Assembly: GCA_944320745.1 (NCBI GenBank)
Contig: CALUIN010000016.1
Coordinates: 1-37,452, forward strand
Length of the DNA stretch: 37,452 nt
Origin: an uncultured Alloprevotella sp.
GTDB lineage: Bacteria; Bacteroidota; Bacteroidia; Bacteroidales; Bacteroidaceae
Direction of reading: 5' to 3'
Shown: one piece after another, positions 5,129 to 37,100 of the stretch
Position numbering within the stretch: position 1 is the stretch's first letter
Layout of the letters: every line of letters begins with the position of its first letter
Translations under genes and position numbers: made by a program
The notes under the pieces: model-generated
Told to the model about the DNA's origin: nothing
Databases searched by the model: none
The model's input: the letters and a program-made list of their open reading frames with translations, nothing else

Positions 5129-5147
5129 CTCTCCACCCGCAGTCCGT

Positions 5148-5954: not shown

Positions 5955-5966
5955 AGCCCTTATCCC

Positions 5967-17915: not shown

Positions 17916-19031
17916 ATGAGCAAGTCATTACGCGTCATTATCAGCGGGGGCGGCACCGGCGGCCATATTTTCCCCGCCATCTCCATAGCCGATGCCATCC
18001 GGGCCAAGCGGCCCGATGCCAAGATCCTCTTTGTCGGCGCCGAGGGCCGCATGGAGATGCAGCGGGTCCCGGCCGCCGGGTACGAGATCAAGGGCTTGCC
18101 CGTGGCCGGTTTCGACCGTCGCCACCTGCTGCGCAATGTCGGCGTCGTGCTCAAACTGATGCGCAGCCGGCGCATGGCGCGCCGCATCGTGCGCGAGTTC
18201 CGTCCGCAGGTGGCCGTCGGGGTGGGCGGCTATGCCAGCGGGCCCACGCTCGACGTGGCCGGACGCATGGGCATTCCTACCCTCATCCAGGAGCAGAACT
18301 CCTACGCCGGCGTCACGAACAAGCTGCTGGCGCGCAGCGCCCGCCGCATCTGCGTGGCCTACGAAGGCATGGAGCGCTTCTTTCCCGCCGGCCGCATCCG
18401 CCTGACGGGCAACCCCGTACGCCGCTCCCTGCTCCAGGCGCCCGCCTCGCGCGCGGAGGTCCTGGCCGCCTTCGGCCTCGCGGCGGACCGTCTCACGGTG
18501 CTTATCCTCGGAGGCTCGCTCGGCGCACGCACCATCAACGAGAGCGTGCTCGGCCAGCTCGGCCTCATCCGCCAGCAGACGCGCGTGCAGTTCATCTGGC
18601 AAACCGGAAAATACTACAGCGCGCAGATTCGCGAACGACTGGAGCAGCAGAAATGTCCCGACAACCTGCACGTCACGGACTTCATCTCCGACATGGCCGC
18701 CGCTTACGCCGTGGCAGACCTCGTGGTGTCGCGCGCAGGGGCAGGCAGCATCTCCGAGTTCTGCCTGCTGGGCAAGCCGGTGATCCTGGTGCCCTCGCCC
18801 AACGTGGCGGAGGACCATCAGACGAAAAACGCCTTGGCCCTCGTGCAGCACGACGCTGCCGTCTACGTCCCCGACGCCGAAGCGCGGCAGACCCTCCTGC
18901 CCGCGGCCATCAACCTCGTGACGGACAGCGCGCGCCTGTGCCAACTTTCGGAAAATATCCGCCGCATGGCGCGCCCCAACGCCGCCGAGGACATAGCCGA
19001 CGAAGTGATCCGCCTGGCCGAAGGGCAGTGA
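17916..19031 (+). CDS. murG: UDP-GlcNAc:undecaprenyl-pyrophosphoryl-MurNAc-pentapeptide GlcNAc transferase
   Basis: This 371-aa peripheral inner-membrane glycosyltransferase converts lipid I to lipid II in peptidoglycan synthesis. The N-terminal glycine loop GGGTGGH is at residues 11-17. IQEQNSYAGVTNKLLA is the acceptor-side motif. The C-terminal donor site includes ILGGSLGARTIN and RAGAGSISEFCLLGKP, and VAEDHQTKNA also fits. Length is normal. It is the first dcw gene in the window and has its own promoter. The 120-bp gap to murC contains a second promoter. Confidence 0.97.
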   Translation: MSKSLRVIISGGGTGGHIFPAISIADAIRAKRPDAKILFVGAEGRMEMQRVPAAGYEIKGLPVAGFDRRHLLRNVGVVLKLMRSRRMARRIVREFRPQVAVGVGGYASGPTLDVAGRMGIPTLIQEQNSYAGVTNKLLARSARRICVAYEGMERFFPAGRIRLTGNPVRRSLLQAPASRAEVLAAFGLAADRLTVLILGGSLGARTINESVLGQLGLIRQQTRVQFIWQTGKYYSAQIRERLEQQKCPDNLHVTDFISDMAAAYAVADLVVSRAGAGSISEFCLLGKPVILVPSPNVAEDHQTKNALALVQHDAAVYVPDAEARQTLLPAAINLVTDSARLCQLSENIRRMARPNAAEDIADEVIRLAEGQ

Positions 19032-19103
19032 GCCGCGCCGTGCTTGCGTGCGCGCGGCTGAAAAAATAGACCGCGCGGTCTCCGTTCTCCAAAAAATAAT
19101 TGC

Positions 19104-19111
19104 TACTTTTG
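19104..19111 (+). promoter_or_regulatory. Promoter -7 box of murC-ftsQAZ
   Basis: TACTTTTG matches TAnnTTTG. It lies 40 bp before the murC ATG and should drive murC, ftsQ, ftsA, both ftsZ genes and yqeY. Confidence 0.6.
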
Positions 19112-19151
19112 CTTTCAGCTACGTAGCAGTACGAGTATAAAATTCAGTATC

Positions 19152-20537
19152 ATGAACTTAGAAGATATAGCGGCCGTCTACTTCGTCGGCGCGGGCGGTA
19201 TAGGCATGAGTGCCCTGGAGCGCTATTTCCTTTCGCGCGGCGTCTGCGTGGCGGGCTATGACCGCACGGAGAGCGCCCTGACGCGCCAGCTTGCCGCCGA
19301 GGGGGCGGACCTGCACTATGCGGACGATCCCGCCCTGATCCCCGGGCGCTGCCGCGATGCGCGCCACACGCTGGTGGTATTCACGCCCGCCATCCCCGCG
19401 GACCACAAGGAGCTGGCCTACTTCCGTCAGAACGGTTTCGAGGTGCAGAAGCGGGCCGAAGTGCTCGGCCTGCTCACGCGCCACATGCGCGGCCTCTGCG
19501 TGGCCGGCACGCACGGCAAGACCACGACCTCGTCCATGCTGGCCCACCTGCTCCATGAGAGCCATGTGGGCTGCAACGCCTTCCTGGGCGGCATAGCCAA
19601 AAATTACGGCACCAACTGCCTGCTCTCCGCCTCCAGCCCCTACGTGGTCATAGAGGCCGACGAGTTCGACCGCTCGTTCCACCACCTGCGTCCCTTCGCC
19701 TCGGTCATCACGGCGACCGACGCCGACCATCTGGACATCTACGGGACGGAGGAAGCCTATCTGGAGAGCTTCCGCCACTACACCACGCTTATCCAGCCCG
19801 GCGGCGCGCTCGTAGTGCACCGCGGGCTCAAGATGCGCGACGACCTGCAGCCCGGCGTGCGGCGCTACGAGTACGCGCGCGACGAGGGCGACTTCCACGC
19901 CCGCCGGCTGCGCATCGGGCAGGGGCGCATCGTCTTCGACCTCGTGTCCCCGCTGGGCGACATCGAGGACGTGGAGCTGGGCGTGCCCGTCGGCGTGAAC
20001 ATTGAGAACGGCATCGCCGCCATGGCCCTGGCCCAGCTGGCCGGCGCCACGCCCGACGAGATACGCCGGGCCATGCGCTCGTTCAGCGGCGTCGTGCGCC
20101 GGTTCGACTTCAAGCTCAACACGCCGCGGATTGTCTTCCTGAGCGACTACGCCCACCATCCCGCGGAAATCCGCCAGAGCATCCTCTCGCTGCGCGAAGT
20201 GTTCGACGGGCGTCGGCTGACGGCCATCTTCCAGCCCCATCTGTACAGCCGCACGCGCGACTTCTACGCCGACTTCGCCGACAGCCTCTCGCTGCTCGAC
20301 AGCGTCATCCTGACCGAAATCTATCCGGCCCGCGAAGCGCCCATACCGGGCGTGACCAGCCAGCTCATATATGACCGCCTGCGCCCCGGCATGGAGCGCC
20401 GCATGTGCCGCAAGGCGGACGTGCCCCGCATCGTGGAGGAGGGCGACTTCGACGTGCTCATGCTCCTCGGCGCCGGCGACCTGGACGACTACGCTCCCCG
20501 GCTCACGGAGATACTGCGCCGCAAATACCACGTATGA
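19152..20537 (+). CDS. murC: UDP-N-acetylmuramate--L-alanine ligase
   Basis: A 461-aa cytoplasmic Mur ligase that adds the first amino acid of the peptidoglycan stem peptide using ATP. The N-terminal Rossmann motif VGAGGIGMSAL, the P-loop GTHGKTTTSS (starting at residue 119), EADEFDRSF and the C-terminal SDYAHHPAEI are all in MurC order. HHPAEI favours MurC over MurD/E/F. Length is typical. It is first in the murC-ftsQ-ftsA-ftsZ run, 57 bp before ftsQ. Confidence 0.96.
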   Translation: MNLEDIAAVYFVGAGGIGMSALERYFLSRGVCVAGYDRTESALTRQLAAEGADLHYADDPALIPGRCRDARHTLVVFTPAIPADHKELAYFRQNGFEVQKRAEVLGLLTRHMRGLCVAGTHGKTTTSSMLAHLLHESHVGCNAFLGGIAKNYGTNCLLSASSPYVVIEADEFDRSFHHLRPFASVITATDADHLDIYGTEEAYLESFRHYTTLIQPGGALVVHRGLKMRDDLQPGVRRYEYARDEGDFHARRLRIGQGRIVFDLVSPLGDIEDVELGVPVGVNIENGIAAMALAQLAGATPDEIRRAMRSFSGVVRRFDFKLNTPRIVFLSDYAHHPAEIRQSILSLREVFDGRRLTAIFQPHLYSRTRDFYADFADSLSLLDSVILTEIYPAREAPIPGVTSQLIYDRLRPGMERRMCRKADVPRIVEEGDFDVLMLLGAGDLDDYAPRLTEILRRKYHV

Positions 20538-20594
20538 CCCGCCGCCCTGCCGGCCGTACATTCCTCTTCCGAAACCCCACTGAAGGCTGCTGAC

Positions 20595-21329
20595 ATGAAG
20601 ACGTTTCTCAAACTCGCACTACTCCTGGCACTCACGGTCTATCTGATATTCGCCTTTGTCCGGCTCGCCGGCGGCGGCGACGATACGAAGTGCAAGGCCG
20701 TGGACATAACCATCGTGGACAGCACCCATGCCGGCTTCATCACGACCGCCGAGGTGAGGCGCCTCCTGAGCAAGGCGGGCCTGGCCCCCGTGGGCAAGCG
20801 CATGGAGGACATAGACGGGAAACGAATAGAGCAGGTGCTGCTCAAGAACGCATTCGTGAAGCACGTCACCTGCTATAAGACGCCCGGCGGCCGCGTGAAG
20901 ATACACCTTTCCCAACGCCTGCCGCTGCTGCGCGTCATGGCTGACAACGGCGAGGACTACTACCTCGACGCCGAGGGCAACGCCATGAAGCCCGAAGGCT
21001 ATCATGCCGATCTCATCGTGGCTACGGGCCGCATCAGCCGCGACTATGCCCGGCGCAAGCTGGCCTGCCTGGCGCGCCAGTTCCATAGCAACCCCTTCGC
21101 CGCCGACCTGGTGGTACAGGTCGGCGTGGCGCCCGACAGCACCGTCACCCTGGTGCCCCGCGTGGGATGCAGGCTCATCCGCTACGGCAAGCTGGACAGC
21201 CTCAACATGGACCGCAAGTTCAGCAACCTGAAAGCCTTCTACGCGAAGGTGCTCCCTGAAGTGGGTTGGAATACTTACCGGGAAATCAGCCTGGAGTATG
21301 CCGACCAGATAATCTGCAAGAAGAAATAA
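20595..21329 (+). CDS. ftsQ: Cell division protein FtsQ
   Basis: A 244-aa bitopic inner-membrane protein: a short cytoplasmic start, one membrane segment (about residues 5-27) and a periplasmic region. The periplasmic region begins with a POTRA-like fold (about 36-105, FITTAEVRRLL...VKIHLSQRLPLLRV), followed by the beta domain. FtsQ links FtsB/FtsL and the late divisome. Sequence conservation is low, as usual for FtsQ in Bacteroidota, and the call rests on topology, the POTRA pattern, and position between murC and ftsA. It ends 23 bp before the ftsA ATG. Confidence 0.9.
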   Translation: MKTFLKLALLLALTVYLIFAFVRLAGGGDDTKCKAVDITIVDSTHAGFITTAEVRRLLSKAGLAPVGKRMEDIDGKRIEQVLLKNAFVKHVTCYKTPGGRVKIHLSQRLPLLRVMADNGEDYYLDAEGNAMKPEGYHADLIVATGRISRDYARRKLACLARQFHSNPFAADLVVQVGVAPDSTVTLVPRVGCRLIRYGKLDSLNMDRKFSNLKAFYAKVLPEVGWNTYREISLEYADQIICKKK

Positions 21330-21352: not shown

Positions 21353-22789
21353 ATGGCAATAGAAGACAACTTTATTGTGGCGATTGAACTGGGCTCGTCC
21401 AAGGTGCGGGCACTCGCCGGGCGAAAGGCACCCGACGGCGCAATACAGGTATTGGCCAGCGCCCAGGAACCCTCCGAGTCGTTCATACGGAAAGGCCGCA
21501 TCAACAATTTCAACAAGATGTCGCAGTGTGTCGCCAACCTGAAGGACAAACTGGAGAAGCAGCTTCAGAAGTCGATCAGCCGCGTCTACGTAGGCGTGGG
21601 CGGCATGGGCCTGCACACCGTGCCCAACGTCGTCACGCGCCACTTCGCGGAGAAGACGGTCATTACGCAGGAGATGCTCAACAGCATTCTCAAGGCTAAT
21701 CTCGAGGCCTCGCCCGCCGACAGCATCATCCTCGAGGGCGTACCCCAGGAGTACCGCCTCGGCGCGCAGACCGTATCGGACCCCGTCGGCATGCAGACGG
21801 AGAATATCGAAGGGCACTATCTGAATATCGTCACGCGCGCTGCGGTAAGCGAGGATATCAGCAGCTGCTTCGGCAACGCCGGCGTGCCTATTGCCGGCAA
21901 GCCCATCTCTACGCTCCAGCTCGCCGACACCATGCTCACCGGCCCGGAGAAGCGTTCCGGCTGCGTCTTCGTGGACATGGGCGCGGAAACAACGGCGGTC
22001 GCCGTGTACAAGAACAACGTGCTGCGCCACCTGGCCGTCATCCCGCTCGGCGGCGCCAACGTGAACCGCGACCTTTGCTCCTTCCAGATAGAGGACGATG
22101 AGGCCGAGGAGCTTAAGCGCCGCTTCGGAGCCGCCCTCTATCCCGATACGGAAAAAGAACATGCCCCCGTCGCGCTGCGCGACGGCAGGACCGTGAAGTT
22201 CGATGACTTCAGCGCGATGGTAGAGGCACGCATGGAGGAGATCATCCTCAACGTGAACAACCAGATCGCACTCTCCAGGTACGACAAATCCCAGCTCATC
22301 GGCGGCATCGTCATCACCGGCGGCGCGGCCAATATGAAGGACATGGACAAGGCCTTCGAGCGCTACACCGGATTCGAGAAGTTCCGCTTCGTGAAGTCGC
22401 CCCGCCTCCAAGTGCGTGCAGCTTCCAAGGAGGAGGCCGGATTCAACGACGACGGCAGCTACAACGTGGTCATCGCCCTTATGGACAAGTGCGAGCTGAA
22501 CTGCTGCGGCGGCGACCACGGCTCGCTTGTGCAGGACATCTTCGAGGCCGCCGCGGAGAAGGAGACTCCCGCCGCCGGCGAAGCCCAGAAGGCCGCTGGC
22601 CCCGACGCCAGGAGCGAAGTCCCCCAGCGGCACGCCGCCGACGAGGAGAAAGAGCCTGAGCCCGAACCGCAGCGCCAGAAGTCCGGCAACGGATGGTTCA
22701 GCCGCCTGAGCAAGCGGTTCAGAGACTTGACCGAAAGAGTCATTTCCGAGGACGACGAAATCAAGAAAGGCGGACAGGGGCGCGGCTAA
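21353..22789 (+). CDS. ftsA: Cell division protein FtsA
   Basis: This 478-aa actin-like ATPase tethers FtsZ to the membrane. The N-terminal phosphate-1 motif IELGSSKVRALAG starts at residue 11. The 1C subdomain region follows, then the DMGAETTAVAVY phosphate-2 loop and GGIVITGGAANM adenosine loop. The C-terminus is a long linker rich in E, P and K (about 400-446). An amphipathic helix GWFSRLSKRFRDLTERVI (447-464) is the membrane-targeting sequence, followed by 14 further residues. The start at 21353 fits homology better than an upstream frame-continuous start inside ftsQ (21266). ftsZ starts 60 bp downstream. Confidence 0.95.
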   Translation: MAIEDNFIVAIELGSSKVRALAGRKAPDGAIQVLASAQEPSESFIRKGRINNFNKMSQCVANLKDKLEKQLQKSISRVYVGVGGMGLHTVPNVVTRHFAEKTVITQEMLNSILKANLEASPADSIILEGVPQEYRLGAQTVSDPVGMQTENIEGHYLNIVTRAAVSEDISSCFGNAGVPIAGKPISTLQLADTMLTGPEKRSGCVFVDMGAETTAVAVYKNNVLRHLAVIPLGGANVNRDLCSFQIEDDEAEELKRRFGAALYPDTEKEHAPVALRDGRTVKFDDFSAMVEARMEEIILNVNNQIALSRYDKSQLIGGIVITGGAANMKDMDKAFERYTGFEKFRFVKSPRLQVRAASKEEAGFNDDGSYNVVIALMDKCELNCCGGDHGSLVQDIFEAAAEKETPAAGEAQKAAGPDARSEVPQRHAADEEKEPEPEPQRQKSGNGWFSRLSKRFRDLTERVISEDDEIKKGGQGRG

Positions 22790-22849: not shown

Positions 22850-24175
22850 ATGCCAGAGAATAAGACAGAATCCCTAATCGATATGGGCAAGCCCTCCACC
22901 TCGCCCTCCATCATCAAAGTGATAGGCGTCGGCGGCGGCGGCGGTAATGCCGTCAACCACATGTACCGCGAAGGCATCCACGACGTGAACTTCGTGCTTT
23001 GCAACACCGACAGCAAGGCCCTCTGCGACTCGCCCGTGCCCATGCGCCTACAGTTGGGCAAGGAAGGGCTCGGCGCGGGCAATCGTCCCGAACGGGCACG
23101 CAACGCCGCCGAGGAAAGCGTCGAGGACATCCGCCAGATGCTCAACGACGGGACCAAGATGGTATTCATCACCGCCGGCATGGGCGGCGGCACGGGCACC
23201 GGCGCCGCGCCCGTCATTGCCCGCGAGGCAAAAGGAATGGGCATCCTCACGGTCGGCATCGTCACCATCCCCTTCCTCTTTGAAGGGAACAAGAAGATAG
23301 ACCAGGCGCTCGACGGTGTGGAAGAGATTTCCAAGCACGTGGATGCCCTGCTCGTAATCAACAACGAACGCCTCCGCGAGATCTACCCCGATCTCAACGT
23401 GCTCAGCGCCTTTGAGAAAGCCGACAACACGCTCAGCGTGGCCGCCCGCAGTATTGCCGAAATCATCACCATGCACGGCATCATCAACCTCGACTTCCGC
23501 GATGTCTGCACCGTGCTCAAGGACGGCGGCGTGGCCATTATGTCCACCGGCTACGGCGAGGGAGAAAACCGCGTGACCAAGGCCATCGACGACGCCCTCC
23601 ATTCCCCATTGCTCAACAACAACGACATTTTCAACTCCAAGAAAGTCCTGCTCTCCATCTCCTTTTGCGCCGAGAAGGACGGCGACAGCCTCATGATGGA
23701 GGAAATGAACGAGGTACACGAGTTCATGTCCAAGTTCCACGACGACGTAGAGACGAAGTGGGGCCTCTCCACCGACCCCTCGCTGGGCAAGAAGGTGAAA
23801 ATCACAATCCTGGCCACCGGCTTCGGCATCGCCACCGTCCCCGGCATGAAGGAGAAGCACGACGCCGAGGACGAGAGCCGCCGGCAGCACGATGCCGAAA
23901 AGCAGGAGGAGAACGAGGAGCGCCGCGGACAGTTCTACGGCCCGTCGGACAAGAAAGGCGGCCAGCGCCGCCGTCCCAAGGTCTACCTGTTCGGCCTGGA
24001 GGACCTGGACAACGAGGAAGTCATCTCCATGATAGAACTCACGCCCACCAACCGGCGGAGCAAGGAGACGCTCGGCGAAATCAAGCGGAAGAGCAACGGC
24101 AGCCGCCCCTTCGAGATAGAGGGCAACAACATGCTAGACAGCAACGTCATATCCTTCACCGACGCTCCCGCCTGA
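22850..24175 (+). CDS. ftsZ: Cell division protein FtsZ (first copy)
   Basis: A 441-aa tubulin-like GTPase forming the Z ring. The GTP-binding core has GVGGGGGNAV near residue 26, the tubulin signature GGGTGTG at 112-118, and the T7 catalytic loop NLDFRDV at 213-219. A charged linker (about 335-370) leads to a C-terminal stretch with FGLEDLDNEEVISMIE, of the LDND-type found in Bacteroidales FtsZ tails, and a terminal NVISFTD peptide. Position right after ftsA and the GLGAGNRPE loop suggest this is the canonical copy. The start could also be the in-frame GTG at 22841. The ATG at 22850 is preferred. A paralogue of the same length follows 73 bp downstream. Confidence 0.96.
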   Translation: MPENKTESLIDMGKPSTSPSIIKVIGVGGGGGNAVNHMYREGIHDVNFVLCNTDSKALCDSPVPMRLQLGKEGLGAGNRPERARNAAEESVEDIRQMLNDGTKMVFITAGMGGGTGTGAAPVIAREAKGMGILTVGIVTIPFLFEGNKKIDQALDGVEEISKHVDALLVINNERLREIYPDLNVLSAFEKADNTLSVAARSIAEIITMHGIINLDFRDVCTVLKDGGVAIMSTGYGEGENRVTKAIDDALHSPLLNNNDIFNSKKVLLSISFCAEKDGDSLMMEEMNEVHEFMSKFHDDVETKWGLSTDPSLGKKVKITILATGFGIATVPGMKEKHDAEDESRRQHDAEKQEENEERRGQFYGPSDKKGGQRRRPKVYLFGLEDLDNEEVISMIELTPTNRRSKETLGEIKRKSNGSRPFEIEGNNMLDSNVISFTDAPA

Positions 24176-24179
24176 CCTT

Positions 24180-24230
24180 CGCGCGGCTCCGTCCCGCCAC
24201 TCCCGGCTCGAGGCCGCGCGTCCCGTTTTC
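24180..24230 (+). promoter_or_regulatory. Hairpin between the two ftsZ genes, possible attenuator
   Basis: A perfect 8-bp stem CGCGCGGC/GCCGCGCG (24180-24187 with 24213-24220) starts 5 bp after the first ftsZ stop and is followed by TCCCGTTTTCCCG. The loop is long (25 nt) and the T run short, so full termination is doubtful. Partial termination or mRNA end protection is possible. No TAnnTTTG promoter is seen before the second ftsZ. Confidence 0.4.
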
Positions 24231-24248
24231 CCGTTAAGACACAACGCA

Positions 24249-25574
24249 ATGGAGCAGAAAGACAACAAACCAGGCATCGGGCAGGACAGTCTGCTTGTCA
24301 ATTGGGCCGCCACCAGTGCCCCCTCCGTCATCAAGGTAATCGGAGTCGGGGGCGGCGGCGGCAATGCTGTCGCGCAGATGTACCACGAGGGCATTCCCGG
24401 CGTGAAGCTTATGGTGTGCAACACCGACAGCAAGGCCCTCAGCGACTCTCCGCTCACCGACCGCCTGCAGCTCGGTCCCGGTCTTGGAGCGGGCGGCAAT
24501 CCCGAGATAGGGCGCGAATACGCCGAGGAGAGCATCGACGCCATACGTGCCAGTTTCGACGACGGAGTGAAAATGGTCTTTCTCACCGCAGGCATGGGCG
24601 GCGGCACCGGCACCGGGGCAACGCCTGTCCTGGCCCGCGAAGCCCGCACCCGCGGCATTCTGACCGTCGGCATCGTCACACTCCCCTTCCTCTTCGAGCG
24701 CGAGAAGCAGATCGACAAGGCGCTCGACGGCCTCGACGCCTTGGCCGCCGAGGTCGATGCCCTGCTTGTCATCAACAACGAGCGGCTCATGGAGATCTAT
24801 CCCACGCAGGACATCCTGGCCGCCTTCAAGAAGGTGGACGAGACCCTGACCACGGCCGTGCGCAGCATAGTCGACATCATCAACATGCACGGCCGCGTCA
24901 ACCTGGACTTCCGCGACGTCAGCACCGTGCTTAAGGACGGCGGCGTAGCCGTCATTTCCACCGGCTACGGCGAAGGCCCCGACCGTGTGCGCCGCGCCAT
25001 CGAGGACGCGCTCTATTCGCCGCTGCTCAACAACAACGACGTCTACCGATCGAAGCGTATCGTCATCAAAGTCACCGTGGGGGAAAAGGAAGGCCCCTGC
25101 GCGCTCCAGATGGCCGAATTTAGCGAAATCAACGATTTCACCGCGCGCTTCGGCGACGACCTGGCCACCAAATGGGGCCTCGACTTCGACTCCCGCCTCG
25201 AGGGCAAGGTGAAAGTGACCATCCTGGCATCGGGCTACAGCCTCTACGGCGCGCCCGCCGCATCCGCCCCGGCCCACTTGCCCGACCCCGAAGCCGAGAA
25301 GCGCGAAGAACGCCGCTCCGCCTTCTACACCCGCGGCACGAAGCCGCACACCCGAGAAGTCCGGGCCGCGCGCCTTCACTTCTATCTCTACGGGCTGGAC
25401 GACCTGGACAACGAAATGCTCGTCGAACTTGTCGACGCCGTGCCCACGCGCAGCCGAACGGCTGCGGACCTGCAGCGCATAGCCAACCAGTCCGCGCCCA
25501 AGGAGCAGCTGCCCGACGCAGAGGAGACGGAGCGGCCGGACGTGATTTATTTCAGTGACACAACGACATCATAA
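24249..25574 (+). CDS. Second FtsZ paralogue in tandem
   Basis: A 441-aa FtsZ-family protein. It keeps GVGGGGGNAV, the tubulin signature GGGTGTG at 117-123 and the T7 loop NLDFRDV at 218-224, so GTP binding and hydrolysis should be intact. By eye roughly two thirds of core residues match the first copy. N-terminal tail, linker and surface loops differ (VAQMYHEGIPGVKLM against VNHMYREGIHDVNFV). The C-terminal tail keeps the same plan: YGLDDLDNEMLVELVD and a terminal DVIYFSD. The retained tail suggests it still contacts FtsA or other tethers, perhaps co-polymerising with or modulating the first FtsZ. No frameshift or loss of motif, so not a pseudogene. The yqeY gene starts 12 bp downstream. Confidence 0.95.
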   Translation: MEQKDNKPGIGQDSLLVNWAATSAPSVIKVIGVGGGGGNAVAQMYHEGIPGVKLMVCNTDSKALSDSPLTDRLQLGPGLGAGGNPEIGREYAEESIDAIRASFDDGVKMVFLTAGMGGGTGTGATPVLAREARTRGILTVGIVTLPFLFEREKQIDKALDGLDALAAEVDALLVINNERLMEIYPTQDILAAFKKVDETLTTAVRSIVDIINMHGRVNLDFRDVSTVLKDGGVAVISTGYGEGPDRVRRAIEDALYSPLLNNNDVYRSKRIVIKVTVGEKEGPCALQMAEFSEINDFTARFGDDLATKWGLDFDSRLEGKVKVTILASGYSLYGAPAASAPAHLPDPEAEKREERRSAFYTRGTKPHTREVRAARLHFYLYGLDDLDNEMLVELVDAVPTRSRTAADLQRIANQSAPKEQLPDAEETERPDVIYFSDTTTS

Positions 25575-25586
25575 TAAGGACACAAG

Positions 25587-26039
25587 ATGGATCTGTTTGA
25601 ACAAGTCAGCAAGGACATCGTCGCTGCCATGAAGGCGAAGGACAAACTGCGCCTGGAGGCGCTGCGCAATGTCAAGAAATGCTTTATCGAAGCCAAGACC
25701 GCGCCCGGAGCCGGCGACCAGCTGCCCGATGACGTGGCTTTGAAAATCCTCTCCAAACTCGCCAAGCAGGGACGCGACACCGCCGCGCTCTACACCGCAC
25801 AGCAGCGCCCGGACCTGGCCGAGGAGGAAATGGGCCAGGTGAACGTCATCGAAGAATACCTGCCCAAGCCCCTCTCGCCCGCGGAGCTCGAGGCTGCCGT
25901 GCGCGACGTCATCGCCGAGACGGGAGCAGCGGGTCCGAAGGACATGGGGCGCGTCATGGGCGTGGCCACAAAGCGACTGGCCGGAAAGGCCGAGGGCAAG
26001 GCTGTGGCCGACTGCGTGAAGCGTCTGCTGGCCCTGTAA
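25587..26039 (+). CDS. GatB/YqeY domain protein
   Basis: A 150-aa cytoplasmic helical protein of the YqeY family, related to the tail domain of the GatB amidotransferase subunit that contacts tRNA. DIVAAMKAKDKLRLEALR at the N-terminus, EEEMGQVNVIEEYLPKPLS in the middle and GRVMGVATKRLAGKAEGK near the end are the family's hallmark stretches. Its function is not firmly known. A role with tRNA or aminoacylation quality control is inferred from the domain. It closes the murC-ftsZ run in this genome, and the same neighbourhood with ftsZ is commonly seen in Bacteroidota. A strong terminator follows. Confidence 0.93.
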   Translation: MDLFEQVSKDIVAAMKAKDKLRLEALRNVKKCFIEAKTAPGAGDQLPDDVALKILSKLAKQGRDTAALYTAQQRPDLAEEEMGQVNVIEEYLPKPLSPAELEAAVRDVIAETGAAGPKDMGRVMGVATKRLAGKAEGKAVADCVKRLLAL

Positions 26040-26562: not shown

Positions 26563-27261
26563 TTAGACCTCTGCCTCGGGCAGATAGCCCTCGCGGCGCA
26601 GCTGGCCGATGAGTTCTTCCAGTTCCGCGTACCAGGCCTCGCCAAAGCGGCGGACAAGCGGTTCGCGCAGGAAGCGGTAGAGCGGCAGATGCAGTTCGCG
26701 GCCCTTGCGCACGGCGTCGGCACAGATGGCCCAGCGGTGGTAGGACAGGCCGGTCAGTCCGCCGCCCAGCTGCCGTTCGCGGATGGGGTAGAGGCTGCAC
26801 GATATGGGTTTGCACCACGCGGTGCGGCCCTGGCGGTAGGCGCGCTCCGTCGCGCAGAGGCAGCAGCCCGCCGCATCGTAGCAGGTGAAGGCGCAGTCGC
26901 GCCCGCCAACGATGCTGGTGACAAGGTCGCCGTCCGCGTCGGTGTAGGCCACGCCCTGGCGGTCGATGACGGCGCGGGCTTCCGGCGCCAGTTCGTCGCG
27001 CACGGTGTCGAGCACCTCCTCGAGCGCCGCGACTTCGTCCAGCGTGACGGGTGCGCCGGCCTCGCCCTCCACGCAGCAGATGCCGCGGCAGGCTTCCAGA
27101 TCGCAGCAGAAGCACTCCGTGAGCAGTTCGGAGGAGAGAATGACGTTGCCCACCTGGAGCAGGGGCGGCAGTTGGGGGCGTCGGGGGTCGTGAGTTTCCG
27201 CGCCGTGCCGGTCCGGCGCGGGCTGGGGGCAGTAGCTGGCGGTATGGTTCTTTGAGCTCAT
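26563..27261 (-). CDS. DUF3109 family cysteine-rich protein
   Basis: A 232-aa protein with the DUF3109 core starting near residue 36 (QVGNVILSSELLTECFCCDL) and two cysteine clusters. The first has C50, C52, C53, C58, C62 and C63 (ACRGICCVEGEAGAPV). The second, around 122-155, includes DCAFTCYD, GCCLC, WCKPISC. The family resembles YkgJ-type metal-chelating proteins and probably binds zinc, iron or an Fe-S cluster. No function is established. The first 35 residues are polar, proline-rich and not part of the usual family, so the real start may be an internal GTG at the V of QVGN. I kept the ATG at 27261 because it sits 28 bp after ung, on the same strand. Confidence 0.8.
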   Translation of the reverse strand: MSSKNHTASYCPQPAPDRHGAETHDPRRPQLPPLLQVGNVILSSELLTECFCCDLEACRGICCVEGEAGAPVTLDEVAALEEVLDTVRDELAPEARAVIDRQGVAYTDADGDLVTSIVGGRDCAFTCYDAAGCCLCATERAYRQGRTAWCKPISCSLYPIRERQLGGGLTGLSYHRWAICADAVRKGRELHLPLYRFLREPLVRRFGEAWYAELEELIGQLRREGYLPEAEV

Positions 27262-27289
27262 GGCTTATGGTTTTAGAGATTTGTGTGGC

Positions 27290-27952
27290 TCACCATTCTA
27301 CGGGCGTGATGCCGTGCTCAGCGAGGTAAGCGTTCGCGCGGCTGAAGTGGTGGTTGCCGAAGAATCCGCGGTAGGCAGAGAGGGGCGAGGGGTGGGCCGA
27401 CGTGAGAACCAGATGGCGCGAGCGGTCGATCATGGCGCCTTTGCGCTGGGCATAGCTGCCCCAGAGGATGAAGACGATGTGCTCGCGCTCTGTGGCCAGG
27501 CGCTGTATGGCCGCGTCGGTGAAGATTTCCCACCCGTGGCCTTGGTGTGAGCCGGCCTGGTGGGCGCGCACGGTGAGCGTGGCGTTGAGCAGCAGCACGC
27601 CCTGGCTGGCCCAGCGGCGCAGGCTGCCGCTGGCCGGTACGGGCCGGCCCAGGTCGTCGTGGATTTCTTTGAAAATGTTCTGCAGCGAGGGCGGGAACGG
27701 CACTCCCTCCGCAACGGAGAAGCAGAGGCCTTCGGCCTGTCCCTCCTCGTGGTAGGGGTCCTGCCCGATGATGACTACCTTGACGCGGTCGAAGGGGCAT
27801 AGGTCGAAGGCGGCGAAGATTTGCGGGCCGGGCGGGTAGCAGGGGCCGGCGTGGTACTCCGCGCGGACGAACTGCGTGAGGGCGGAGAAGTAGGACGCGT
27901 CGAACTCCGGCTGCAGGCGGTCGCGCCAGGTGGCGTCTATCTTTACTGTCAT
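27290..27952 (-). CDS. ung: Uracil-DNA glycosylase
   Basis: A 220-aa family 1 UDG that removes uracil from DNA. The water-activating loop GQDPYH has D65. N123 in LLLNATLTV recognises uracil. The leucine-intercalation loop HPSPLSAYRGFFG carries H187 and L191. Length is standard. It lies upstream of the DUF3109 gene in the same direction and downstream of the speA terminator. The likely promoter is a weak -7-like CATTTTTG (minus strand, 28003 to 27996), one base off consensus. Confidence 0.96.
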   Translation of the reverse strand: MTVKIDATWRDRLQPEFDASYFSALTQFVRAEYHAGPCYPPGPQIFAAFDLCPFDRVKVVIIGQDPYHEEGQAEGLCFSVAEGVPFPPSLQNIFKEIHDDLGRPVPASGSLRRWASQGVLLLNATLTVRAHQAGSHQGHGWEIFTDAAIQRLATEREHIVFILWGSYAQRKGAMIDRSRHLVLTSAHPSPLSAYRGFFGNHHFSRANAYLAEHGITPVEW

Positions 27953-27995
27953 ATTGTGACGGGCTTGGTTTTCGGGTTGAAGGGGATGCGCGGCG

Positions 27996-28041
27996 GCAAA
28001 AATGCCGGCGGGCAGCCCGGACCGGCCGGGATGCCCGCCGG
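27996..28041 (-). terminator. Terminator of topA-aroK-speA
   Basis: On the minus strand a 10-bp perfect stem CCGGCGGGCA/TGCCCGCCGG (28041-28032 with 28014-28005) has an inner CCCGG/CCGGG extension. It is followed by CATTTTTG. It lies about 60 bp after the speA stop. Confidence 0.8.
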
Positions 28042-28102
28042 ATGTGCGGAGCCGCGTGAGTGACCGGCCGCCGTGAACGGTGGGCCGGTCCCGGCCGACG
28101 GC

Positions 28103-29995
28103 TTACTCCAGGTAGGTGTAGCCGTAGAGGCCGGAGCGATAGTTGGAGATGAACTCCTTGCCTTCCTCGACCGTGATGCGGTTTTCCTTGACGGACTTGC
28201 TGACCCATGCCTCGAGCATGCGGACCAGATGCTTGGGGTCGTATTGCACGTATTCCAGGACGTCGGCCACGGTCTCGCCGTCGATGGTCTTGTCGATGCT
28301 GTAGCCTTCCTCGTCGACGGTGATGTGTACGGCATTGGTGTCGCCGAAGAGGTTGTGCATATTGCCCATGATTTCCTGATAGGCTCCTACGAGGAACACG
28401 CCGATGTAGTAGTGTTCGCCGGGAGCTATGGCGTGGAGGGGCAGATAGGTGGTCTGCTGGTTCTGGTTGACGTAGGTCGTGATTTTCCCGTCGGAGTCGC
28501 AAGTGATGTCCTGCAACGTGGCCGAGCGCGTGGGTTTCTCGTCGAGGCGGGCGATGGGCATGATGGGGAACAACTGGTCGACGCCCCAGGAATCGGGCAG
28601 GGACTGGAAGAGCGAGAAGTTGCAGAAATACTTCTCGGCCATCATGCGGTCGAGCTTGCGGAGCTCGTCGGGGACGTGCTTCTGGTGGTGGACGAGTTCG
28701 GCTATCTCGCTCGAGATGCTCCAGTAGAGGCTTTCTATCTGTGCGCGGGTGCGCAGGTCGATGATGCCGTGGCGGAAGAGGTCGAGGGCCTCTTCGCGGA
28801 TGTCCTCGGCGTCGTGCCAGTCCTCGAGCATGGAGCGGGGGGAGAGCTTGTCCCAGATCTCGGTGAGGTCCTTTACGAGCTGATGGTCGTTTTCGGCGGG
28901 CTCGAAGTCCTCGGCCATGTGGGGCACGCTGACGCTTTCCATGACGTCGACGATGAGGACGGCGTGGTGGGCGGTAAGTGAGCGGCCGCCCTCGGTGATG
29001 ATGTTGGGGTGGGGGATACCGTTCTTGTTGGCGGTGTCGACGAGCGTGTAGACGCAGTCGTTGACGTACTCCTGGATGCTGTAGTTGACGGAGCTCTCGG
29101 AGTTGGAGGAGCGGGTGCCGTCGTAGTCGACGCCCAATCCGCCGCCGCAGTCGACGAACTTGATGTTGAAGCCGAGGCGGTGGAGCTGCACGTAGAACTG
29201 TGCGGCTTCACGCAGGGCGGTGGAGATGCGGCGGATTTTGGATATTTGCGAGCCGATGTGGAAGTGGATGAGGGAGAGGCATTCGCGCATGCCCATCTCG
29301 TCGAGCATCTTGAGGGCCTGGAGCAGCTCTGCGGAGTTGAGGCCGAACTTGGAGGCGTCGCCTCCGCTCTCTTCCCATTTGCCTGCGCCGCTGGAGGCGA
29401 GCTTGATGCGTACGCCGAGGTTGGGCCGCACGCCGAGCTTTTCGGCGGTGCGGGCGATGATTTGCAGTTCGGGCAGTTTCTCGATGACAAGGAAGATGCG
29501 CTTGCCCATCTTCTGGGCGAGCAGGGCCAGTTCGATGAAGTTCTGGTCCTTGTGGCCGTTACAGATGATGAGGCTGTCGGAGTCCATGTTCGTGGCCAGG
29601 ACGGCGTGGAGCTCGGGTTTGGAGCCGCATTCGAGGCCGAGGTTGAACTTTTTGCCGTGGCTGATGATTTCCTCCACGACGGGCTTCATTTGGTTGACCT
29701 TGATGGGGTAGATGATAAAGTGCTCGGCCTTGAAGTCGTAGGCTTTCTCGGCGCGGGCAAAGCATTCGGCGGTTTTTTCGATGCGGTTGTCGAGGATGTC
29801 GGGGAAACGCAGCAGCATGGGGGCTGTAATGTCGCGGCTGGCAAGTTCGTCTACTACTTCCTTGAGGTCAACCCTCATGCCGTCCTTGCGGGGGCAGACG
29901 TAGGCGTGACCCTTCTCGTTGATGCCGAAGTAGTTGACTCCCCAACCCTTGATGTTGTAGAGCTCCTCTGAATCTTCAATTCTCCATTTTTTCAT
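28103..29995 (-). CDS. speA: Biosynthetic arginine decarboxylase
   Basis: A 630-aa PLP-dependent enzyme that decarboxylates arginine to agmatine, the first step of putrescine and spermidine synthesis. YFGINEKGHAYVCPR near residue 22 opens the SpeA N-terminus. The PLP lysine lies in IIYPIKVNQ around residue 97-105. IHFHIGSQ and the CGGGLGVDYDGT loop are the family's substrate and phosphate contacts. Length is typical of SpeA. Its ATG overlaps the aroK stop as ATGA (4 bp shared), so translation is coupled. Confidence 0.96.
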   Translation of the reverse strand: MKKWRIEDSEELYNIKGWGVNYFGINEKGHAYVCPRKDGMRVDLKEVVDELASRDITAPMLLRFPDILDNRIEKTAECFARAEKAYDFKAEHFIIYPIKVNQMKPVVEEIISHGKKFNLGLECGSKPELHAVLATNMDSDSLIICNGHKDQNFIELALLAQKMGKRIFLVIEKLPELQIIARTAEKLGVRPNLGVRIKLASSGAGKWEESGGDASKFGLNSAELLQALKMLDEMGMRECLSLIHFHIGSQISKIRRISTALREAAQFYVQLHRLGFNIKFVDCGGGLGVDYDGTRSSNSESSVNYSIQEYVNDCVYTLVDTANKNGIPHPNIITEGGRSLTAHHAVLIVDVMESVSVPHMAEDFEPAENDHQLVKDLTEIWDKLSPRSMLEDWHDAEDIREEALDLFRHGIIDLRTRAQIESLYWSISSEIAELVHHQKHVPDELRKLDRMMAEKYFCNFSLFQSLPDSWGVDQLFPIMPIARLDEKPTRSATLQDITCDSDGKITTYVNQNQQTTYLPLHAIAPGEHYYIGVFLVGAYQEIMGNMHNLFGDTNAVHITVDEEGYSIDKTIDGETVADVLEYVQYDPKHLVRMLEAWVSKSVKENRITVEEGKEFISNYRSGLYGYTYLE

Positions 29996-30570
29996 TGGCT
30001 GTCGGCTTGTGGCGGGGGGACGGCTTGTTGCGCTCCGGCCATCCCGCCGCCTATGGTTTTCGTGATGAGATTGACGATGTCTTTGACTTTATCGAACGAA
30101 TCGAGTACGTTGATGTCAATGATGTGTTGCGCCTTTTCGTAGTACGGGGCGCGTTGTGCCAGCTGGCTGTCGATGAAGCTGCGGAGCTCTTCGTCGGTTT
30201 TCCCCTTGAGCAGAGGGCGTTCGCCGCGGCTCATGGCGACGTGGCGGCAAAGGGTCTCGGTCGAAGCCTTGAGGTAGACGGTTTCGGCTACGGCGTTCAT
30301 GTAGTCCATGTTGTCGTAGAAGCAGGGGGTGCCGCCGCCGCAGGCCAGAACGATGTCCTCGAACTCGGCCACCTCGTGGAGCATGCGGCACTCCAGGTTG
30401 CGGAAGCGGGCTTCGCCTTCTTCGGCGAAGATCTGCGGGATTTTCTTGTGGAAACGCTCCTCGACGTACCAGTCCAGGTCGTAGAACGTGCGGCCCAGGC
30501 GTTTGGCCAGGGCTTTCCCTATGGTGGTTTTCCCGGCGCACATGTAGCCGATGAGGATGATGCACTTCAT
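29992..30570 (-). CDS. aroK: Shikimate kinase
   Basis: A 192-aa P-loop kinase that phosphorylates shikimate in the chorismate pathway. The Walker A motif GYMCAGKTT is at residues 8-16. DLDWYVEERF and FRNLE are shikimate-binding stretches. ACGGGTP is the third conserved loop. The cysteine within the Walker A replaces the more usual G/S-rich bases of the loop but is common in Bacteroidales. It lies 27 bp downstream of topA and overlaps speA by 4 bp. The 3' end (PPPQADSQ) is a short family-unrelated tail. Confidence 0.95.
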   Translation of the reverse strand: MKCIILIGYMCAGKTTIGKALAKRLGRTFYDLDWYVEERFHKKIPQIFAEEGEARFRNLECRMLHEVAEFEDIVLACGGGTPCFYDNMDYMNAVAETVYLKASTETLCRHVAMSRGERPLLKGKTDEELRSFIDSQLAQRAPYYEKAQHIIDINVLDSFDKVKDIVNLITKTIGGGMAGAQQAVPPPQADSQ

Positions 30571-30597
30571 GGTCTGGGCAGTTATGGCTGTGTATGG

Positions 30598-32934
30598 TCA
30601 GGCTTTGGCCTTGCGGCGCGGCGCGCGGGCCGGTCTCTTTCCCTCTTCCTCGATGATGTGGCGGCACTCCTCGAGCGTCAGTTCGGCGGCCCGGGCGGCC
30701 TGTGCCTTGGGGATTTTGTAGTTTTTCCCGTTGAAGGCAATGTATGGGCCGAAGCGGCCGGCGCGCACCTCGAGCCCGGGCTCCTCGGCGTATTGTCGCA
30801 GGTGGCTTTTTGCCTCGCTTTCGCGCTTGGCCTCGATGAGCTCGGTGGCGCGTTCGAGCGTGACGCTCATCGGGTCTTCGTCCTTGGGGATGGAGACGTA
30901 TTTCTTGTCGTGTAGCACGTAGGGGCCGAAGCGTCCGCTGTTGACCACGACGGGCTTGCCTTCGAAGTCGCCCAGGGTGCGCGGCAGCTTGAAGAGGGCG
31001 AGGGCTTCCTCGAGCGTGATGGTGCTGATGCTTTGTCCGCGCGAGAGGGTGGCGAAGCGGGGCTTTTCCTCGTCGTCCGAGGTGCCGATTTGCGCCATGG
31101 GGCCGTAGCGGCCTATCTTGACCAGGACCTTCTTGCCGGAGGCGGGGTCTGTGCCGAGCTCGCGCTCGCCCACTTTGTGCTCCAGCTTTTCGGCGAGGGT
31201 GCGTTCCACTTCGGGCTCGAAGTTATCGTAGAACTGGCGGATGAGTTCTGTCCAGTCCTTATGCCCCTCGGCGACGGCGTCGAAGTCCTTCTCGACGTTG
31301 GCCGTGAAGTTGTAGTCCATGATTTCCGGGAAATTGTTCAGCAGGAAATCGTTGACGACCACGCCGATGTCCGTGGGGATGAGTTTCCCCTTGTCGGCAC
31401 CGGCCATTTCCTCCTTCTGCGTGTCGGTGATGCGTCCGTCGGCCAGTGTGAGGATGTCGTAGGCGCGGGGCTGTCCGGCTTTGTCGCCCTTGACGACATA
31501 CTCGCGTTGTTGGATGGTGGATATGGTGGGGGCGTAGGTCGAGGGGCGGCCTATGCCGAGTTCTTCCATTTTGTGGACGAGCGAGGCCTCGGTGTAGCGG
31601 GCGGGCGGCTGGCTGAAGCGTTGCTGCGCCGTGATGGTGGCCGGCCGGGGGTGCTCGCCTTCCTCCATGTGCGGGAGCAGGCGGCTTTCGGCCTCTTCTT
31701 CGCCGGCCTGGGTATCGCTGCTTTCCCGGTAGACTTTGAGGAAGCCGTCGAAGAGGATGACTTCGCCCGTGGCGACGAACTGTTCCTTGCGGCCGGATAT
31801 GCTGATGGTGGCGGTGGTGCGCTCCAGCTGTGCGTCGGCCATCTGGCAGGCGACGGTGCGCTTCCATATCAGTTCGTAGAGACGGCGCTCCTGTACCGTC
31901 CCGCTGACGGTGTCGCGGCGCATGTCGGTGGGGCGGATGGCTTCGTGAGCTTCCTGCGCCCCCTTGGTGTGGGTGTGGAATGTGCGGCGCTGGTGGTATG
32001 ATTCGCCCATACGCTCGGCGATAAGCGGACCGCACGCGTTCAGGCAGAGCGTGGAGAGGTTCATCGAGTCGGTACGCATGTAGGTGATGCGGCCGGCTTC
32101 GTAGAGGCTCTGGGCTATGCGCATGGTGAGCGCGACGGGGTAGCCGAGTTTCCGGGCTGCTTCCTGCTGGAGCGTGGACGTGGTGAAAGGAGGTGCCGGC
32201 GAGCGGCGGCTGGGGCGCGTGGCTACGGAGGCTACGGTGAACGTGGCCTCGCGGCAGCTTTCCAGAAAGGCCTGGGCCTCGGCCCGGGTCTTGAAGCGCG
32301 TGTCGAGCTCGGCCTTGAGCTCAGCGTTGTTCTCCGCCGGCAGGCGGAAATGGGCCGTGACGCGGTAGGCGGCTTCGCTCTTGAAGGCTTCGATTTCGCG
32401 TTCGCGCTCCACGATGAGCCTGACGGCGACGCTCTGTACGCGTCCGGCCGAAAGGCTGGGGCGCACCTTGCGCCAGAGGATGGGCGAGAGCTTGAAGCCG
32501 ACGAGGCGGTCGAGCACCCGGCGGGCCTGCTGCGCGTCGACGAGGTTGAGGTCGATATGCCGCGGATGGGCTATGGCGGCCATGATGGCCGGCTTGGTGA
32601 TTTCGTGGAATACGATGCGTCGCGAGGTCTCGGGGTCCAGCTGCAGGACCTCGGCCAGATGCCACGAGATGGCTTCTCCCTCGCGGTCTTCATCGGAGGC
32701 GAGCCAGATGGTGTCCGACTTCTTGGCCTGGGCCTTGAGCTCGTTGACTACGTGGACTTTATCGGCTGGTATCTCGTATTCCGGCTGGAAGGTCTTCAAG
32801 TCTACACCGAAATTCTTCTTCTTCAAATCGCGGATATGGCCAAAGCTGGACATGACTTTGTAGTCCGGTCCGAGAAACTTCTCGATGGTCTTCGCCTTGG
32901 CTGGAGACTCGACGATTACCAGGTTTGTTTGCAT
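30598..32934 (-). CDS. topA: DNA topoisomerase I
   Basis: A 778-aa type IA topoisomerase that relaxes negative supercoils. The TOPRIM domain has E9 (NLVIVESPAKAK) and SDEDREGE with D81/D83/E85. The catalytic tyrosine is Y285 in GRITYMRTDS. C-terminal to about residue 590 there are three topoisomerase-C repeats (GRYGPMAQIG, GRFGPYVLHD, GRFGPYIAFN), no zinc-finger cysteines, and a lysine/arginine-rich end (RPARAPRRKAKA). Length and layout match Bacteroidota TopA. It is first of the topA-aroK-speA operon. Confidence 0.97.
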   Translation of the reverse strand: MQTNLVIVESPAKAKTIEKFLGPDYKVMSSFGHIRDLKKKNFGVDLKTFQPEYEIPADKVHVVNELKAQAKKSDTIWLASDEDREGEAISWHLAEVLQLDPETSRRIVFHEITKPAIMAAIAHPRHIDLNLVDAQQARRVLDRLVGFKLSPILWRKVRPSLSAGRVQSVAVRLIVEREREIEAFKSEAAYRVTAHFRLPAENNAELKAELDTRFKTRAEAQAFLESCREATFTVASVATRPSRRSPAPPFTTSTLQQEAARKLGYPVALTMRIAQSLYEAGRITYMRTDSMNLSTLCLNACGPLIAERMGESYHQRRTFHTHTKGAQEAHEAIRPTDMRRDTVSGTVQERRLYELIWKRTVACQMADAQLERTTATISISGRKEQFVATGEVILFDGFLKVYRESSDTQAGEEEAESRLLPHMEEGEHPRPATITAQQRFSQPPARYTEASLVHKMEELGIGRPSTYAPTISTIQQREYVVKGDKAGQPRAYDILTLADGRITDTQKEEMAGADKGKLIPTDIGVVVNDFLLNNFPEIMDYNFTANVEKDFDAVAEGHKDWTELIRQFYDNFEPEVERTLAEKLEHKVGERELGTDPASGKKVLVKIGRYGPMAQIGTSDDEEKPRFATLSRGQSISTITLEEALALFKLPRTLGDFEGKPVVVNSGRFGPYVLHDKKYVSIPKDEDPMSVTLERATELIEAKRESEAKSHLRQYAEEPGLEVRAGRFGPYIAFNGKNYKIPKAQAARAAELTLEECRHIIEEEGKRPARAPRRKAKA

Positions 32935-32966
32935 ACTCCTTTATTGAATGTCTTGTGATTCGCCCG

Positions 32967-32974
32967 CAAAAGTA
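32967..32974 (-). promoter_or_regulatory. Promoter -7 box of topA-aroK-speA
   Basis: On the minus strand TACTTTTG matches TAnnTTTG. It lies 33 bp before the topA ATG. Confidence 0.6.
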
Positions 32975-33026
32975 GGAAAAAAAGCGGGGCCGGGGCAGTT
33001 AGCCCCTGAAAATATTTTGTGACAGT

Positions 33027-33069
33027 CGGCGGCGGGGCAGGGCAGTGCTTCGCCGGCGGCGGGGCAGGG
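33027..33069. repeat. 16-bp direct repeat just past the DUF5686 gene
   Basis: CGGCGGCGGGGCAGGG occurs at 33027-33042 and 33054-33069, a 27-bp step. The second copy abuts the stop codon of the minus-strand gene. Confidence 0.75.
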
Positions 33070-35664: not shown

Positions 35665-35807
35665 GTAGTGGTGGATATGTTCGTATGGAAAAGCGGATAG
35701 TTCAGTGGATAAAAAAGCCCCATGACCCGCCGTTGCCGGTCGGGCCGTGAAGCTTTTCATAGTCAGGAGCGGGCAAGGCCGAAGCGGCCTCGCCTGTTTC
35801 CCGTAGA

Positions 35808-37100
35808 TCAGTCGATTTCTTCGTCAGCCTCGTAGCCGCCCATCTCGCGGATGGCGTTCTTCAGCATGACGTACTGCTGGAAGAGGTGGTTGACGGGCAC
35901 CTCGCCGTTGACGTAGTCGTGCATCGGGCTCTTGAGGAAGAAGCTCAGGAAGCGCTGGATGCCGTAGCGTCCGGCGCGGGCGGCCAAGTCGCTCAGGAGC
36001 ACGAGGTCGAGCACCAGCGGAGCTGCCAGGATGGAGTCGCGGCAGAGGAAGTTGATCTTGATCTGCATCGGGTAGCCCATCCAGCCGAAGATGTCAATGT
36101 TGTCCCAGCCCTCCTTGTTGTCGTTGCGGGGTGGGTAGTAGTTGATGCGCACCTTGTGGTAATAGTCCGTGTAGAGGTCGGGCTGGTTTTCGGGGACGAG
36201 GATGCTTTCGAGCGTGGAGAGCTTGCTGACCTCCTTGGTGTGGAAGTTGGCGGGTTCGTCCAGCACGAGGCCGTCGCGGTTGCCCAGGATGTTGGTGGAG
36301 AACCATCCGGACAGGCCCAGGCAGCGCGTGCCTATGATCGGTGCGAAGCCGGACTTCACGAGTGTCTGGCCGGTCTTGAAGTCCTTGCCGGCGATGGGCA
36401 GTTTGGTCTTCTCCGCCATTTCCCACATGGCCGGGATGTCCACTGTCGTGTTCGGTGCGCCCATGATGAAGGGAGCTCCCTCGGCCAGGGCGGCGTAGGC
36501 GTAGCACATGGAGGGCGCGATGTGCTGGCGGTCGTCAGCCTTCATGGCGGCTTCCAGTGCGGCCAGCGTGCCGTGCACCTTCATGTCCACCGGGACGTAG
36601 ATTTCCGTCGAGGCGGCCCATATCACCACAATGCGGCTGCAGCCGTTGGCTTCCTTGAAGTCGCGGATGTCCTTGCGCAGGGCTTCTACCATTTCCCAGC
36701 GGGTGGCGCAGTCCTTCACGTTTTGGCCGTCCAGGCGGCGGGCATACTCGTGATCGAAAGCGGCCTTCATCGGGACGATTTTTTCCAGCTCGTCCCGCAC
36801 GGGGTTAATGTCCTTCTCTTTGAGAACTTCTGCGCTGATTGCGGACTCGTAGGCGTTGGAGGAATATACGTCCCACGCGCCGAATACCAGGTCGTTCAGG
36901 TCGGCCAGCGGAACGATTTCCCCGTAGTGCAGGTACTTCTTGTCCTTGCCGCGGCCTACGCGGATCTTGTCGTATTGCGTCATCGAGCCAACGGGCTTTG
37001 CCAATCCCTTGCGGACCATCAACACGCCTGTAATGAATGTCGTGGCGACGGCTCCCAGCCCGACGCACATCACTCCTAATTTTCCTGTTGCAGGTTCCAT
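35808..37100 (-). CDS. ino1: Inositol-3-phosphate synthase
   Basis: A 430-aa NAD-dependent enzyme that converts glucose-6-phosphate to 1D-myo-inositol 3-phosphate. The dinucleotide loop GLGAVATT is at residues 14-21. Later conserved regions are APNTTVDIP, GKDFKTGQT and FLCRDSILAAPLVLDLVLL, the last belonging to the catalytic domain of the family. Length matches the bacterial MIPS of Bacteroides rather than the longer eukaryotic enzyme. In Bacteroides thetaiotaomicron the MIPS gene stands with phosphatidylinositol-phosphate lipid genes. Here the next gene on the strand is a DUF5686 outer-membrane protein and no lipid gene is in the window. It has its own promoter box. Confidence 0.95.
   Translation of the reverse strand: MEPATGKLGVMCVGLGAVATTFITGVLMVRKGLAKPVGSMTQYDKIRVGRGKDKKYLHYGEIVPLADLNDLVFGAWDVYSSNAYESAISAEVLKEKDINPVRDELEKIVPMKAAFDHEYARRLDGQNVKDCATRWEMVEALRKDIRDFKEANGCSRIVVIWAASTEIYVPVDMKVHGTLAALEAAMKADDRQHIAPSMCYAYAALAEGAPFIMGAPNTTVDIPAMWEMAEKTKLPIAGKDFKTGQTLVKSGFAPIIGTRCLGLSGWFSTNILGNRDGLVLDEPANFHTKEVSKLSTLESILVPENQPDLYTDYYHKVRINYYPPRNDNKEGWDNIDIFGWMGYPMQIKINFLCRDSILAAPLVLDLVLLSDLAARAGRYGIQRFLSFFLKSPMHDYVNGEVPVNHLFQQYVMLKNAIREMGGYEADEEID

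Follow-up and report, generated by a model that had tools for sequence, protein, structure and literature searches.

The stretch of DNA analysed here (the window), 37,452 nucleotides from an uncultured Alloprevotella sp., carries two adjacent ftsZ genes behind ftsA, and the reading we favour, with a probability of roughly 0.5 for the explanation as a whole, is that the second, ftsZb, is an old paralog of the first, ftsZa, which arose by tandem duplication within the dcw cluster before this genus and a neighbouring one in the same family diverged, and that its product acts with FtsZa in a two-FtsZ ring as a modulator subunit that is tunable and dispensable. The pair itself is real, and the presence of an old, maintained second FtsZ that looks active from its sequence is supported.

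The gene order on the forward strand is murG-murC-ftsQ-ftsA-ftsZa-ftsZb-yqeY, in which the upstream part of the dcw cluster (murG, murC and ftsQ, 17916..21329, named from their position and from matches between the loci) leads into ftsA (21353..22789), whose product ends in an amphipathic helix. ftsZa (22850..24175) has 441 codons from ATG 22850, or 444 from an in-frame alternative start at GTG 22841, and its product falls in with the FtsZ of related genera that have just one. The diverged second gene, ftsZb (24249..25574), is complete, as is ftsZa, with 441 codons from ATG 24249, and is followed after 12 bp by yqeY (25587..26039). In the 73-bp gap that separates the genes (24176..24248), a simple scan of both strands found nothing resembling a terminator, and a weak promoter-like match lies upstream of this gap, inside ftsZa (24006-24033; one found against 0.5 expected). 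The initial annotation had placed two 441-codon ftsZ frames behind ftsA and in one operon with yqeY, and both coordinates and order are as it claimed; the GGGTGTG motif, the T7 loop NLDFRDV (23486..23506 in ftsZa, 24900..24920 in ftsZb), the LDNE region and the terminal peptides VISFTD (24146..24163) and VIYFSD (25542..25559) that it listed for the two copies are likewise all there. Both proteins match PF00091 (148.3 bits for FtsZa and 140.8 for FtsZb, cut-off 33) and TIGR00065 FtsZ of NCBIfam (322.1 and 297.5 bits, cut-off 295.2), the latter narrowly in the case of FtsZb. The reverse-strand genes further downstream (26563-37100), for DUF3109, uracil-DNA glycosylase, arginine decarboxylase, topoisomerase I, DUF5686 and myo-inositol-1-phosphate synthase, showed nothing out of the ordinary.

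For a census of the genus, the loci of strong matches were fetched from 58 genomes, the window's included, and their gene order was read. All but one have an FtsZ match (57/58, the sole exception being a 55% complete genome), and 41 have an FtsZb-class gene, which stands in tandem with ftsZa in 37, again counting the window. The others are an intact ftsZb that sits with yqeY on a contig apart from ftsA-ftsZa (G056), a copy on a separate contig (G050) and two relocated copies (G016 and G019). FtsZa comes first in 36 of the 37 tandems, with ftsA visible ahead of it in 34 and the contig ending there in the other two; in the remaining tandem (G035) the diverged copy is first, as it also is in the tandem of a second genus, g12 (G197). 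A role peculiar to one species, as had initially been suggested, is contradicted by a tandem pair in 37 of 58 genomes, and the possibility then allowed for, that the second copy would prove an artefact or the property of one isolate, did not come about, the gene being present in 41. It is hardly credible that the pair is an assembly artefact: the genome of the window is a draft in 50 contigs with a completeness of 84% (in which no third FtsZ was found at E 0.001), but 36 further members of the genus have the pair, including G004, which is a single contig, and G003, where it lies on a 2.76-Mb contig. The remaining 16 of the 58 have FtsZ and lack FtsZb, so FtsZb is not required for division as such and appears useful rather than essential.

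The trees speak for an old duplication. In a quick tree with 126 rows, the 42 FtsZb rows make up a single clade (SH-aLRT 99); in a careful one with 105 rows, a 20-row clade (support 98/96, the bootstrap not having settled) unites the sampled FtsZb with the first copies of g12 and G035 and the two relocated copies. Because a second genus also contributes a copy to this single clade, the duplication is old, which is the outcome by which a phylogeny was to support an old and maintained second gene. The g12 first copy falls within the FtsZb clade of the 105-row tree; a free search on 45 rows missed the grouping of the two, and the tree constrained to have it was slightly better (p 0.57). On a neighbour-gene tree of 67 rows, G035 and g12, both with the pair, join at the base of the genus side, and ten changes in the presence of FtsZb are needed, nine of them forced by well-supported branches; such counts cannot alone separate gain from loss, and the most economical account is a single duplication that preceded the g1/g12 split, with the gene then lost repeatedly. 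Several derived residues are common to FtsZb and the FtsZ of its family and fit an origin within that family, f1. The FtsZ of Segatella copri groups with a member of f1 (100/99 in the 105-row tree), and f1 is therefore probably Bacteroidaceae as broadly defined in GTDB. A duplication that is recent or confined to a single isolate is ruled out by the census together with the FtsZb clade. Also rejected is a kinship of FtsZb with the non-last copies of the tandem arrays in other families described below (p-AU 7e-60, 45 rows).

A further paralog, the dispersed FtsZc, occurs in five of 57 genomes of the genus (L041, L053, L070, L072 and L035) and in five genomes of other genera of the family (L103, L107, L112, L114 and L118), the latter chosen partly for having two FtsZ. 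It forms one clade (100 in the 126-row tree, 100/100 in the 105-row tree), is frameshifted in L103 and N-terminally truncated in L035, and no neighbours or partner gene common to its loci were found. FtsZb and FtsZc could together be one still older second FtsZ of the family, and not the product of a duplication near the base of the genus. We think this unlikely: the sisterhood of the two is not rejected (p-AU 0.23), and in both glycine stands at FtsZa positions 81 and 86 (N and A in FtsZa itself), but both careful trees keep them apart, and there are derived residues in FtsZb and FtsZa, for example at positions 226 and 306, that are missing from FtsZc. Positions 81 and 86 (numbered from GTG 22841) belong to the T3 loop, and their glycines could reflect either shared descent or convergence of extra paralogs.

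The second gene evolves faster than the first and is nevertheless constrained. Over 162 genome pairs, which are non-independent and were taken with dS under 1.5 for both genes, dN/dS at core positions is 0.017-0.67 for FtsZb (median 0.33) and 0.005-0.24 for FtsZa (median 0.10), with many dS values near 1, so that single figures are rough; FtsZb has the higher value in all 162. Values for whole frames, from stop to stop, ran higher and included tails and pre-start codons, and the core-only values are preferred. A ratio near 1, named beforehand as the sign of an unconstrained copy, is thus not what is seen, and the core median indicates purifying selection. Among 35 genomes FtsZa has a mean amino-acid distance of 0.150 and FtsZb one of 0.397; FtsZb evolves 2.65 times faster. 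Its 36 nucleotide-site and T7 positions have a mean conservation of 0.94 against 0.67 for the rest of the core (0.98 against 0.88 in FtsZa), and this site and loop are thus the protected part of the protein, as expected of one that still polymerises. Both T7 aspartates are kept in all 42 FtsZb-class rows and the asparagine ahead of them in 30, given which hydrolysis by FtsZb may be altered. The initial description of the second copy as divergent yet apparently active is borne out by these kept GTP-binding and T7 residues and by the purifying selection. No internal stops occur in the matched operon copies of ftsZb in the genus census, which together with the kept residues and dN/dS disfavours a pseudogene or neutral copy. 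There is little probability, in our estimate, that FtsZb is a slowly decaying duplicate with little function, kept by chance. The faster evolution, a dN/dS above that of FtsZa and the roughly ten presence changes on the neighbour-gene tree would all suit decay, but the three closest pairs have core values of 0.13, 0.10 and 0.02, the catalytic residues persist, and operon copies with internal stops are missing. More improbable again is gene dosage, that is, two interchangeable copies raising the level of FtsZ: both are FtsZ by family models and they lie in one gene run, but dosage predicts similar copies, whereas the FtsZa and FtsZb found together in a genome have, on average over 35 genomes, different residues at 39% of core positions, and their tails differ too. 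Pure dosage control, one of the roles first suggested for the pair, is unlikely for these same reasons.

The tails bear on how such a pair might be held at the membrane. The C-terminal peptide of FtsZ generally binds FtsA; at its position the window's FtsZa has PTNRR (24044..24058), where most relatives have PTYKR, and FtsZb has a diverged PTRSR at the equivalent place (25443..25457). We derived from the relatives a canonical pattern, P[AT][YFWHC]xR near the end, which neither of these peptides matches, both fitting the loose pattern only. Across the genus the canonical form is found in 41 of 56 FtsZa and 8 of 39 FtsZb, and the loose form in 51 and 30 (shuffled-tail means 3.8 and 4.2), in counts that omit one short FtsZa row, two relocated FtsZb rows and one cut by a contig end, and that include the g12 copy among the 39. 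With 15 of the 56 FtsZa also lacking the canonical motif, weakening of the tail is not confined to FtsZb. In this weakening the tail of FtsZb resembles plastid FtsZ1. As for self-anchoring by the operon FtsZb, none of the 39 passes an FtsA-tail HMM that recovers 54 of 83 held-out FtsA and whose threshold is the 99th percentile of the scores for 3,280 shuffled tails, and 2 of 39 pass a moment test over 11 residues, close to the 3.8% seen with shuffles. The two relocated copies (L051 of G016, 4300-5601, and L056 of G019, 4652-6121) are placed with FtsZb in the trees and end in an amphipathic helix; kinship with FtsZc is not rejected (p 0.108), and their filing under FtsZb is unsure.

How might the two proteins work together? 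In the modulator reading, ftsZa and ftsZb would be co-transcribed from one gene run, FtsZb would polymerise through its conserved longitudinal face, and it would either enter FtsZa filaments or run alongside them and alter their turnover, while the link to the membrane through FtsA, presumably the anchor of the pair, would be carried mostly by FtsZa. The single clade, purifying selection, kept catalytic residues and weakened tail are all consistent with this, as is a correlation between the distance matrices of FtsZa and FtsZb (r 0.43 over 35 genomes; best of 999 permutations 0.33), which partly reflects shared species history and is no proof of contact. Weighing against it are the T7 asparagine, missing from part of FtsZb, the FtsZa tails that also lack the canonical peptide and the genomes with no FtsZb. 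It is conceivable, though on balance we doubt it, that FtsZb forms filaments of its own for a separate job, such as cell shape or asymmetric or condition-specific division, with no shared ring. Its faster evolution and its loss from part of the genus would be natural for such a protein, as would the relocated FtsZb-class copies that in two genomes have their own amphipathic helix, but FtsZb adjoins ftsZa in 37 of the 41 genomes that have it, and the longitudinal face is what it has conserved.

Tandem ftsZ genes also occur elsewhere in the order, so the window is not unique. In 107 genomes, one for each other family of Bacteroidales (E 1e-10), one FtsZ match was found in 96, two or three in eight and none in three, and the initial remark that most Bacteroidales have a single ftsZ therefore holds. 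The genes are in tandem in seven of these families, two of which have three in a row, and in every case directly behind ftsA; one further family has two dispersed matches. Among the best 80 of the named-genome matches listed, tandems are present in Maribellus luteus XSD2, Prolixibacter bellariivorans ATCC BAA-1284 and Draconibacterium orientale FH5T, and none is of the window's type. No adjacent ftsZ genes were found in 127 genomes of other orders of the phylum, six of which (G395, G411, G418, G426, G434 and G445, all of family f123) have dispersed second or third matches. The seven families and three named strains provide ten arrays (L201-L207, L157, L160 and L180) of two or three copies behind ftsA, and the canonical FtsA-binding peptide is present in all ten last copies and in none of the 12 earlier ones, the T7 motif N.D..D being kept in all 22. 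At the ends of the earlier copies are short hydrophobic segments, a suggestion that these copies may bind the membrane directly. At a moment of 0.6 in an 11-residue window, 5 of 12 earlier copies pass, compared with 9.6% of shuffled versions of the same tails and with none of ten last or 19 single copies; in a 14-residue window none of the 12 does.

The FtsZc tails present a related picture. None of the ten has the FtsA-binding peptide, and all nine that were scored (the frameshifted L103 being left out) reach a moment of 0.6 in the 11-residue window. The FtsA-tail HMM is passed by 5 of 10 FtsZc, 3 of 12 earlier tandem copies and both relocated FtsZb, several of them with scores below the best shuffle (11.9 bits), and by none of 140 other FtsZ tails. 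An FtsZc with an FtsA-like amphipathic helix, taken with the earlier tandem copies, suggests that these FtsZ anchor themselves. FtsZ-mts is a laboratory fusion, of which a self-anchoring FtsZ would be the natural counterpart. A single origin of the amphipathic-tailed FtsZ (non-last tandem copies plus FtsZc) is rejected (p-AU 0.005, 45 rows). It is tempting to speculate, at odds that we would put a little short of even, that in Bacteroidales a duplicated ftsZ has repeatedly become a second division tubulin, a modulator in the lineage of the window and a self-anchoring copy elsewhere. In the former a co-polymerising FtsZb would rely on FtsZa for the membrane; in the latter the extra copy would have gained an amphipathic segment of its own at the C-terminus in place of the FtsA-binding peptide and would work beside an FtsA-bound FtsZ, an arrangement that would have evolved more than once. 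One very diverged FtsZ/tubulin-like protein (L082 of G043, 5121-6197), 24% identical to FtsZa and with a weak Pfam match (40.5 bits), may be a different member of the tubulin family.

The usual teaching is that a bacterium has a single FtsZ, and a second FtsZ within the operon across most of the sampled genus is a natural experiment on the limits of a single one. Arrays of up to three copies with divided tail types bear on filament dynamics, FtsA dependence and membrane anchoring, and the named tandem strains of Draconibacterium orientale, Maribellus luteus and Prolixibacter bellariivorans put part of the question within bench reach. A search of titles and abstracts, with preprints and most subscription papers outside it, found no description of tandem ftsZ in Bacteroidota or of a bacterial FtsZ with an FtsA-like tail, which is weak evidence that none exists.

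FtsZa and FtsZb share with the known dual-FtsZ systems that two paralogs have long been kept in one lineage. Their gene order, ftsA and then multiple ftsZ, is that of Draconibacterium, Maribellus, Prolixibacter and the seven family arrays; in those arrays the earlier copies do not form one clade with FtsZb and are all without the FtsA-binding peptide. In the few bacteria with two ftsZ genes, the extra copy is reported to be outside the dcw cluster (PMC9871819), whereas ftsZb sits inside it. Archaeal FtsZ1 and FtsZ2 (Odinarchaeota, Haloferax) are also paralogs with different tails and membrane links (PMC12583498); their duplication is ancient, however, and SepF or, in OdinFtsZ1, an N-terminal helix is used. 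Direct membrane binding by FtsZ is described there for Odinarchaeota, with Mycoplasma and plastid cases cited. Of the plastid FtsZ1 and FtsZ2 (FtsZB and FtsZA), one is reported to provide stability and the other dynamics (PMC12343686). FtsZa and FtsZb are similarly two FtsZ in one compartment, but of separate origin inside Bacteroidota and from one dcw cluster, and with losses of FtsZb that indicate dispensability. By analogy, the role of FtsZb would be comparable to that of the second FtsZ of plastids or archaea.
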